Positions 3,147 to 52,587 of a DNA stretch of 64,000 nt are shown piece after piece; the stretch's first letter is position 1, and each line of letters starts with the position of its first letter. The position numbers were made by a program, and so were the translations under genes. The stretch comes from an uncultured Eubacteriales bacterium (GTDB lineage: Bacteria; Bacillota; Clostridia; Oscillospirales; CAG-272): contig CATKFO010000046.1 in assembly GCA_949747515.1 (NCBI GenBank), forward strand, positions 1 through 64,000, given 5' to 3'. The notes beneath the pieces were generated by a model. It searched no databases and was not told the DNA's origin. It saw only the letters and a program-made list of their open reading frames with translations.

Positions 3147-3617
3147 TTATTCTTCTAGCAAAACTACGGCGTGCGCCGATATTCCCTCGCACCGGCCTGT
3201 AAAACCCATCTTCTCTTCCGTCGTAGCTTTGACGTTAATTCTGTCCCGCTCGACGCCGAGTATCTCCGCCAGAGAAGCTCTCATGTCGTCAATATATGAC
3301 GATAGTTTCGGACGCTGAGCAATAACGGTGCAATCTGCAAAGGATATTTTCAGTCCCCGCTTTTCAGCCATCTCAGCCGCGCTCTTTAATATCTCGGAAC
3401 TGTCCATATTCAAAGTCTCATCAGACGTGTCGGGAAAATAAAATCCTATGTCGCGCAGTCCGGAGGCTCCGAGAATCGCGTCGGCAAGCGCGTGAATAAG
3501 AACGTCGCCGTCAGAGTGAGCTTTCAGACCAAAGTCAGAGCTTATCTTAACTCCTCCGAGCGTCATTTTTTTTCCGGGCTCAATTCTATGAGCGTCGTAG
3601 CCGTGACCTATTCTCAT
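3147..3617 (-). CDS. ispF: 2-C-methyl-D-erythritol 2,4-cyclodiphosphate synthase
   Basis: Catalyses the fifth step of the MEP isoprenoid pathway, converting CDP-methylerythritol 2-phosphate to the cyclic diphosphate with release of CMP. The 156-aa length is typical. The zinc ligands D8 and H10 lie in the N-terminal GHGYDAHR, and the third in the AHSDGDVLIHAL segment. The TTEEKMGFTGRCEGISAHAV motif near the C-terminus is characteristic. It overlaps ispD by 4 bases, so the two consecutive or adjacent pathway enzymes are translationally coupled. Confidence 0.97.
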   Translation of the reverse strand: MRIGHGYDAHRIEPGKKMTLGGVKISSDFGLKAHSDGDVLIHALADAILGASGLRDIGFYFPDTSDETLNMDSSEILKSAAEMAEKRGLKISFADCTVIAQRPKLSSYIDDMRASLAEILGVERDRINVKATTEEKMGFTGRCEGISAHAVVLLEE

Positions 3618-4351
3618 ACGTTATCCTCCTCTATTTCGCCGCGCTTCATTATATCGCGATACCTAAGTATTGCCTCCGCGATTATCCTATCCTCGGGATA
3701 CGTAAGCTTAATATTTTCGCGCCCGCAGTCTACGGCTTTAACCTTAAATCCAAGTCTCTCTACAAGCATGCAATCGTCCGTGACCGTAACGCCGTCTTTT
3801 TCAGCAGAATAAACTCCCGCTCTGTACATATCGGCCATAAACGCCTGTGGAGTTTTCATAAGCCACGCAGTATCCCTGTCTATCGTATTTATTATCATAC
3901 CGTCGCAGTCCGCTTCCTTAATTGTATCGACAGCCCTCTCCGCCGCCGCGGCCGCTCCATTCGCAAACGCTTCTCTAAGCACGCTTTCAATTATATCGGC
4001 AGTCACAAGACAGCGCGCGCCGTCGTGCACCGCCACGAAATCAGAGGACTCGTCTACAAGATCAAGTCCGGCCATAGCCGACTTTTGCCTTGTTTCGCCA
4101 CCGGCCGTCACATGAGTCAATTTTTTTATGTTCCCTTCGAGTAAACGTCGGCAATATTCTATGTCCTCCTCTCCGGTAACTACAATGATCTCATCGACAA
4201 GAGCGCACTTTTCAAATTCGGCGGCGCATCTGACTATCGCCGGTATTCCGCCGACAGAAATAAACTGTTTTTTTATAGTTTCTAACCTATCTCCGGTTCC
4301 AATCCGGAACCTATCTCCGGTTCCGGAGGCTAAAATTATAGCGCTAACCAT
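3614..4351 (-). CDS. ispD: 2-C-methyl-D-erythritol 4-phosphate cytidylyltransferase
   Basis: Transfers CMP from CTP to methylerythritol 4-phosphate in the MEP pathway. The fold starts with VSAIILASGTG, the CTP-binding loop, and includes VAVHDGARC and the C-terminal TDDCMLVERLG. The start is uncertain. Homology favours the ATG at 4351, which has only a weak AGAGAG upstream, whereas an in-frame TTG at 4405 has a good GGGAG and would add 18 residues. The CTP loop carries an in-frame 8-residue duplication (GTGDRFRI then GTGDRLET) from a 24-bp tandem repeat at 4284-4324. With one unit removed, the spacing to the KKQF motif matches the family. Whether it affects activity is unknown. Confidence 0.93.
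   Translation of the reverse strand: MVSAIILASGTGDRFRIGTGDRLETIKKQFISVGGIPAIVRCAAEFEKCALVDEIIVVTGEEDIEYCRRLLEGNIKKLTHVTAGGETRQKSAMAGLDLVDESSDFVAVHDGARCLVTADIIESVLREAFANGAAAAAERAVDTIKEADCDGMIINTIDRDTAWLMKTPQAFMADMYRAGVYSAEKDGVTVTDDCMLVERLGFKVKAVDCGRENIKLTYPEDRIIAEAILRYRDIMKRGEIEEDNV
4284..4324 (-). repeat. 24-bp in-frame tandem duplication inside ispD
   Basis: A 17-bp sequence occurs twice without mismatch at 4284-4300 and 4308-4324, separated by 7 bases, giving a 24-bp period. It falls in the glycine-rich CTP-binding loop of ispD and adds eight residues without shifting the frame. Replication slippage is the simplest origin. Confidence 0.85.
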
Positions 4352-4408
4352 TTTTTTTCTCTCTAAAGCGGCCGAAGCCCGCTTGAATATTTCAGAAATT
4401 CTCAAATA

Positions 4409-4575: not shown

Positions 4576-4708
4576 ATTATATCATAAAGAAAAAATGTTT
4601 GATCGCAACGGAGTTTTTTCGAAACCGCCAATTATGCCGCCGCGCTCTGCGCTGGAGCGGCGAAGACGCGAAACTTACGCGGTAATGTTTCCTCGAAATA
4701 TTATACCA
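4576..4708 (-). repeat. Dispersed intergenic repeat, copy 1
   Basis: This is one of three copies of a 129-133 bp element in the window (others at 13609-13737 plus and 52360-52492 minus). Read on the minus strand it begins TGGTATAAT, continues through GAAACATTACCGCGTAAG, a GC-rich block with CGCCGC / GCGGCG arms, GGCATAATTG and GAAAAAAC, then CAAACATTTTTTCTTTATGA, and ends at a second TATAAT. Both TATAAT boxes are preceded by TG-type extended -10 bases. This copy lies upstream of ispD in the same orientation and so may supply its promoter and leader. Confidence 0.7.
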
Positions 4709-13608: not shown

Positions 13609-13737
13609 TGGTATAATAAACGCGGAAACATTACTTCGTAAGTTTTTGCGGCTTCGCCGCGCCCGCGCCGAGTGCGGTTAATTGACGACTTCGCAAAAAC
13701 GTCCTTGCAAGCAAACATTTTTGCTTCATGGTATAAT
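13609..13737 (+). repeat. Dispersed intergenic repeat, copy 2
   Basis: This plus-strand copy of the 129-133 bp element begins TGGTATAAT and contains CGCGGAAACATTAC, GTTTTTGCGGCTTCGCCGC, TAATTGACGACTTCG and CGCAAAAAC. It ends CAAACATTTTTGCTTCATGG followed by TATAAT. GTTTTTGCG and CGCAAAAAC form a 9-bp inverted repeat that encloses the middle, and AAGCAAA / TTTGCTT form a hairpin before the last -10 box. No plus-strand gene follows, so this copy is not simply a gene promoter. Confidence 0.7.
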
Positions 13738-14052
13738 GTAGGCGATCCGTATTCATCCAAATAATAAAATAATCTATGGCGGGGGATTTGCATTTCCGTT
13801 TGCTCATGGACAAAAAGATATTTTTCTAAGTTGAGAAATTATACTTAAATAGGCTATACCTCAATATCTGTATAAACATAAAATCAAAGCGGTAAATGGG
13901 CGGGAACGGCGCGACGGCTAAACCGCCCTTCTACATTAGATGCGTTTATATTTGTAAATAGACAAAATTGAAATCGAGCGTAAAAGTTATTATCGTTATC
14001 GCTTTATATTTCATCAAATTCACTATTTCGCATGAGAATATGAAGGAAAGTC
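13738..14052. other. Gene-free stretch downstream of repeat copy 2
   Basis: No supported gene. A GGGCGG / CCGCCC stem with a 19-nt loop at 13898-13928 could end the minus-strand polymerase operon, although its tail is poor in T. Nothing else was recognised. Confidence 0.3.
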
Positions 14053-14472
14053 TTATATATCCATAAATATATCTCCGTCTAAGCCGTATACGTCGTTCAC
14101 TGGTATCTTAAGACCGCTTTCCATAACGATCGTTTTGTTTACGTCGTCGATAAATTTAACGTATCCTCTTATTTTTATATATGATCCGCCGTCTTTTTTT
14201 TCGTCGTGACGAAAATATTTTAAATCGACTTTACCGCTATGATATCCATTTTTTCGTATCATATCGAGGCGTATGTCGATTTTTTCTTTTTCATATTCGT
14301 CAAGCTCTGATTTTTTGTCTGTAAATCTTGCGGATTCTTTTATTTCCTCATCGTATCCTGCCAGAGCTGAAAAAGGCGCGAACTGCGCCGCGCGATTTCT
14401 AACTGGCATTGAAGGATGAGCGGCAGATATATGACGAGGAAAATTTAGTATGTCGTCATATGTTCGCTTCAT
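14053..14472 (-). CDS. YolD-like protein paired with Y-family polymerase
   Basis: The 139-aa protein is of the YolD-like type, which in Bacillota is encoded directly after or before a Y-family polymerase. The N-terminal segment RNRAAQFAPFSALAGYDE is typical, and the middle is rich in lysine and glutamate. It overlaps the polymerase stop by 4 bases (ATGA), with AGGAGG about 9 bases before its ATG, so the two are co-translated. Its function is not established; a role as accessory factor in translesion synthesis or SOS mutagenesis is inferred from the pairing. Confidence 0.85.
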   Translation of the reverse strand: MKRTYDDILNFPRHISAAHPSMPVRNRAAQFAPFSALAGYDEEIKESARFTDKKSELDEYEKEKIDIRLDMIRKNGYHSGKVDLKYFRHDEKKDGGSYIKIRGYVKFIDDVNKTIVMESGLKIPVNDVYGLDGDIFMDI

Positions 14473-52359: not shown

Positions 52360-52492
52360 TTTATACGGTGAATACAAAATGATTGCCGGCGACGACGTTT
52401 TTCGATGTCGTCGATTATGCGGCGGCGCTCGGCTCGGATGTTGCGAAGCCGCAAAAACTTACGCGGTAATGTTTTCCGCGTTTATTATACCA
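52360..52492 (-). repeat. Dispersed intergenic repeat, copy 3
   Basis: Read on the minus strand the element begins TGGTATAAT and contains CGCGGAAAACATTACCGCG (a 5-bp hairpin), TAAGTTTTTGCGGCTTCGC, GCCGAGCGCCGCCGCATAAT, and a GACGAC / GTCGTC hairpin. It ends at CCGTATAAAC, where the other copies have TATAAT. A TTGAAC -35 box (52507-52512) lies exactly 17 bp before the first -10 box, making a good promoter directed at the uracil-DNA glycosylase gene, about 90 bp beyond the repeat. Confidence 0.72.
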
Positions 52493-52587
52493 TACGAACG
52501 ATCTGAGTTCAACGTTTTTCGCTTGATAATAAGTTGTGAATTCATTGTTTTTTCTTGATGGAAACGCGCAGTAGTCCGACAAAGCTA

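Follow-up and report, generated by a model that had tools for sequence, protein, structure and literature searches.

The repeat present in three copies in the 64,000-nucleotide stretch analysed here (the window) is most probably a non-autonomous mobile element of about 120–124 bp. It appears to insert 3′ of the extended -10 box of promoters, always along the direction of transcription, and its 3′ end, TTCATGGTATAAT, would provide a new -10 box. Across copies we observed precise insertion, fixed orientation, a target preference, dispersal, mixed stacking and covarying palindromes without strand preference.

Copy 1 (4576..4699, minus strand; covariance model 75.6 bits) comprises a cloverleaf, a tail hairpin and its own -10 box, the right box TGATATAAT (4576..4584, minus strand). 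It faces ispD (3614..4405, minus strand; PF01128), and the host extended -10 box of the ispD promoter, TGGTATAAT (4700..4708, minus strand), is the presumed insertion target outside the element. The ispD reading frame itself contains a short tandem-like repeat, CCTATCTCCGGTTCC, at 4288–4335. Copy 2 lies on the plus strand (13618..13737; 107.8 bits) behind a left, target box TGGTATAAT (13609..13617); it ends in TTCATGGTATAAT, which contains a right box of the same sequence as the left one (13729..13737). No codirectional gene of at least 80 aa was found within about 315 bp downstream of it; copy 2 faces a 315-bp stretch (13738–14052), and the next open reading frame (14053–14472) is on the opposite strand and has no Pfam match. 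Copy 3 (52360..52483, minus strand; 63.2 bits) has a decayed tail with TATAAA as right box within the element (52360..52365, minus strand). It faces udg (PF03167 match), whose promoter supplies the extended -10 box TGGTATAAT (52484..52492, minus strand) and, 17 bp ahead of it, the -35 box TTGAAC (52507..52512, minus strand). The original prediction had described two -10-type boxes of the same direction about 120 bp apart in each copy, a TTGAAC that precedes the first box of copy 3 by exactly 17 bp, and an orientation of copies 1 and 3 towards ispD and udg. All of this was confirmed, the box-to-box distance being 120–124 bp in the three copies.

In the window's own genome, BLAST DNA search returned nine matches and the covariance model 11 full-length copies; a further copy (L008) is truncated. 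Within the order, the tail pattern occurred in 14 of 394 genomes, spread over 11 of 168 genera, while the reversed control gave 0 matches. These counts confirm that the repeat is not due to chance. All 47 stretches of the GTDB contig collection with the exact tail pattern were titled Clostridia or Eubacteriales, among them Oscillospiraceae, Ruminococcus and Neglectibacter, and many were of gut origin. All carriers observed were MAGs or uncultured assemblies. A phage-borne source is unsupported, as viral contig, phage and plasmid collections contained no element matches.

The two boxes differ in their surroundings. A TTG -35 element at 16–18 bp accompanied 26 of 53 left boxes and one of 53 right boxes, compared with 20% of all TATAAT sequences of the same loci and 57% of TGNTATAAT. 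TGN preceded TATAAT in 46 of 48 left boxes (background 58/372, p=1e-29), and a G immediately before TATAAT was more frequent in left boxes (36/46) than in ordinary TGN promoters (18/54, p=8e-6). These two enrichments indicate that the target is the extended -10 of a promoter, TRTGGTATAAT, with a preference for the sequence carried at the element's own end. In each copy, the first box is thus best read as the -10 of a pre-existing host promoter and not as part of the repeat. TATAAT occurs on both flanks; the preceding TTCATGG is constant on the right and variable on the left, most copies having been recovered by a pattern that requires GGTATAA on the right side. Within this limit, carriage of the right box by the element is favoured over a target duplication of 6–10 bp by the constancy of TTCATGG and G on that side, and by cases in which a left TACAAT or TATAAC is paired with a right TATAAT. 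At five loci (L164, L168, L169, L045 and L151) TTCATGG precedes the left box without an upstream element, above the expectation from base composition, and the preferred target may reach further in the upstream direction.

With several genes beginning 24–44 nt after it, the second box could plausibly act as an extended -10 promoter. Downstream genes were codirectional with the element in 31 of 40 cases. A scan of 20 downstream neighbours revealed unrelated housekeeping and regulatory genes, one of them a serine recombinase, which speaks against a conserved neighbour gene as partner. At one locus (L016:5826-6797) an element copy adjoins an OLE RNA gene (391 bits). The proposal that the copies are bounded by both boxes holds for the second, which would travel with the element, and fails for the first, which would belong to the host. 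Likewise, a mobile promoter-plus-leader module had been suggested; mobility is borne out below, whereas the leader module gives way to a different description. Only the second box, TTCATGGTATAAT, appears to travel, and the repeat is therefore more aptly seen as a promoter-inserting element that restores a -10.

Evidence for movement came from empty sites. The alcohol-dehydrogenase promoter of genome G432 reads TTGAAAAAGGACGAAAATTATGGTATAATAAGGTATCG, with TTGAAAAAGGACGAAAATTATGGTATAAT joined directly to AAGGTATCG; at this junction, between TATAAT and AAGG, genome G403 carries an insert of exactly 124 bp. A response-regulator promoter carries the element in G403 and at locus L019, whereas in many species of the genus, for example G441, the site is empty. 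In same-genus relatives of the window genome, ispD has plain TGNTATAAT- or TGTGGTATAAT-type promoters without the element, and relatives that keep the gene order around udg show TGGTACAAT or TGATACAAT at about the place of copy 3, again without it. At one site in genus g51, the filled and the empty form differ by a unit with a 23-bp direct repeat on either side, and here the empty form could have arisen by deletion. Two copies in genome G032 (L023 and L026) have interiors that are 100% identical between flanks of 45–49% identity on both sides, which corresponds to random identity. Other copies in G032 are 95–100% identical, and interiors in genome G000 reach 97% identity with random flanks. 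Clean empty sites and identical copies between unrelated flanks indicate that the element is mobile.

The element is non-coding, begins directly after TATAAT and finishes in its own TTCATGGTATAAT. An outer stem (e.g. ACGCAG/CTGCGT) surrounds three short hairpins and thereby forms a cloverleaf, which is followed by a conserved TTGACGG, the tail hairpin GCAAAAATGC/GCATTTTTGC and the end motif. Of the hairpins, a plain MAFFT alignment with RNAalifold recovered just the third and that of the tail, and a hand-set structure with a covariance model was needed for the remainder. In the resulting alignment of 59 sequences 89.8% of the cells were paired, against 74.2% in shuffled and at most 52% in slid structures, percentages that are inflated by fitting the alignment to the structure. 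Changes on both sides occurred in 33 of 36 pairs, and doubly changed cells numbered 326 compared with 91 (shuffled) and at most 81 (slid). At locus L152 the entire tail stem is swapped for a different complementary pair of arms. Comparing the outer-stem arms of each copy with those of other copies was a weak test, ACGCAG being common to many copies. Exceptions to pairing were G-T in 65 and A-C in 56 cases (p=0.47), an equality that the fitting of the alignment does not create. Since both exceptions are equally common, no strand is marked as a functional RNA, pointing to folded or palindromic DNA over a small RNA. On inspection, the 5′ end (ATACGCAG...) did not match the reverse complement of the 3′ end (ATTATACCATGAAGC...) in any family, so that terminal inverted repeats were not found.

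Several of these features recall elements derived from IS200/IS605, such as PATEs and REPs, which have subterminal palindromes, lack inverted repeats and insert beside a fixed short sequence. A non-autonomous element of this type, with subterminal hairpins and moved as single-stranded DNA by a Y1 HUH transposase to a position 3′ of a fixed target, is the strongest of the alternatives and still an unlikely one. Tests for subterminal palindromes and for insertion 3′ of a fixed target were both positive; the target stays intact on the 5′ side, terminal inverted repeats are missing, no clear target duplication is seen, and Y1 genes occur in six of the 14 carriers. In the other eight, including G032, G000, G019, G403, G177 and G020, Y1 was undetected, and Y1 as driver was rejected on this ground. 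G032, which is 98% complete, holds the identical, most recent copies. Moreover, the hairpin sequences covary freely, whereas Y1 enzymes read specific hairpins, and the target is repeated at the element's own 3′ end, a further difference from the IS200/IS605-derived elements.

A little less probable is a small RNA gene, or a structured, riboswitch-like 5′ leader, that has a promoter of its own and precedes a second one, with the cloverleaf acting as RNA. The very strong covariation and the excess of codirectional downstream genes would fit, and transcription from the first box would begin at about the outer stem. At two loci (L041:6940-7130 and L050:5455-5655) the first hairpin resembles a canonical terminator directly after the promoter, which is also in favour of an RNA; at both, the right box is followed by a second promoter-terminator unit. 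On the other hand, functional RNAs should favour G-U, in conflict with the equal G-T and A-C exceptions, and precise empty sites, unrelated downstream genes and first boxes that belong to pre-existing promoters also count against this reading. The element matched no Rfam family in 19 sources. The small RNA gene with a second promoter offered in the original prediction is disfavoured by this lack of an Rfam family, by the failure to find a terminator near copies 1 and 3 of the window, and by G-U showing no excess over A-C. Very improbable, finally, is an origin without mobility, in which ancestral repeated promoter-leader units would have multiplied by local tandem duplication alone and otherwise been passed on by vertical descent: tandem copies at many sites and a few filled sites common to species (L047/L019, L053/L059 and L041/L050) agree with this, but clean empty sites, identical interiors between unrelated flanks and the patchy occurrence in 14 of 394 genomes contradict it.

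The frame of the mobile element is shared by other families. The end motif TTCATGGTATAAT had 36 occurrences in 16 genomes, compared with one control match. A second unit (F2) in G032, AAAGAACAGCAAGCTGTTCTT...GAAATTCATGGTATAAT, is unrelated in sequence to the element described above (F1), also begins after TATAAT and has the same end motif. It was found chained with F1 (L202:500-780, L165, L098 and L102). A third unit (F3), ATCTTAAAGCTTACAGCTTTAAGAT..., in genome G020 begins after TATAAT as well and finishes in the common motif; its copies (L154, L164, L169 and L175) start with ATCTTAAAG... and end in TTCATGGTATAAT or close to it. The arrays in G032 are head to tail and present both orders, F1-F2 and F2-F1. 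Repeated insertion at the box can account for such mixed arrays, which local tandem duplication cannot produce. A frame shared across unrelated units points to a putative novel recombination system.

In the mechanism we propose, the mobile element would insert directly behind TRTGGTATAAT in the direction of transcription, and TTCATGGTATAAT at its 3′ end would become the new -10 in front of the host start region. The host -35 and -10 would be left driving the element, with transcripts starting inside it, and the gene would be served by an extended -10 without -35; both boxes may fire. Movement would proceed as folded DNA, circular or single-stranded, on which a putative site-specific recombinase or strand-transfer enzyme would act in trans, probably with TATAAT as shared crossover or cleavage core. 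Such in-trans, site-specific insertion of folded DNA is suggested by the missing inverted repeats, the fixed orientation, the core on both sides, the junction common to unrelated units and the conservation of structure over sequence. No consistent transposase was found among the carriers.

Integron gene cassettes are likewise unrelated units arranged head to tail in one orientation with a common junction, and folded single-stranded DNA is their substrate. The families described here stack in the same manner (F1-F2 and F2-F1 in G032). Unlike cassettes, they contain no ORF, and their target is promoters throughout the genome and not one attI. By analogy, the mechanism would resemble integron cassettes in its logic and IS200/IS605 elements in its choice of target. 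As a tentative extension, which we hold possible rather than probable, the families may represent a new, cassette-like kind of mobile DNA: unrelated structured units sharing only the 3′ motif TTCATGGTATAAT, inserted and stacked at -10 boxes by a putative recombinase that perhaps exploits the single-stranded -10 in open promoter complexes. Promoters would then serve as integration sites.

In broad terms, the element is one of the small non-autonomous interspersed repeats. The Correia elements (CREE/NEMIS) of Neisseria are short non-coding mobile repeats able to create promoters at insertion sites, as cited in PMC3049150. The element is similar in these respects, with the difference that the terminal inverted repeats of Correia elements, 26 bp long, are missing from it, and that it keeps a fixed orientation and targets a host -10 box. 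The BOX, RUP and SPRITE repeats of pneumococcus are described as small, highly folded, modular and non-autonomous; they are judged to be parasitic and occur in clusters and within one another (PMC3049150). The element shares small size, folding, modularity and non-autonomy with them. In contrast, terminal inverted repeats tie BOX and RUP to IS elements, and none of the three is reported, in the passages covered, as splitting promoters at the -10. A limited literature search on bacterial small repeats and promoter-targeted insertion, with most subscription papers outside its scope, revealed no -10-targeted element of one orientation.

The reading as a cassette system would be categorically new if the enzyme is found. 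Transcription-oriented insertion at the -10 would part a gene from its -35 and upstream regulation while rebuilding a -10. Such splitting of promoters would be a direct route to rewired expression in uncultured gut bacteria, and the clean pairs of empty and filled sites make the questions of expression and recombination testable in any cultured carrier.
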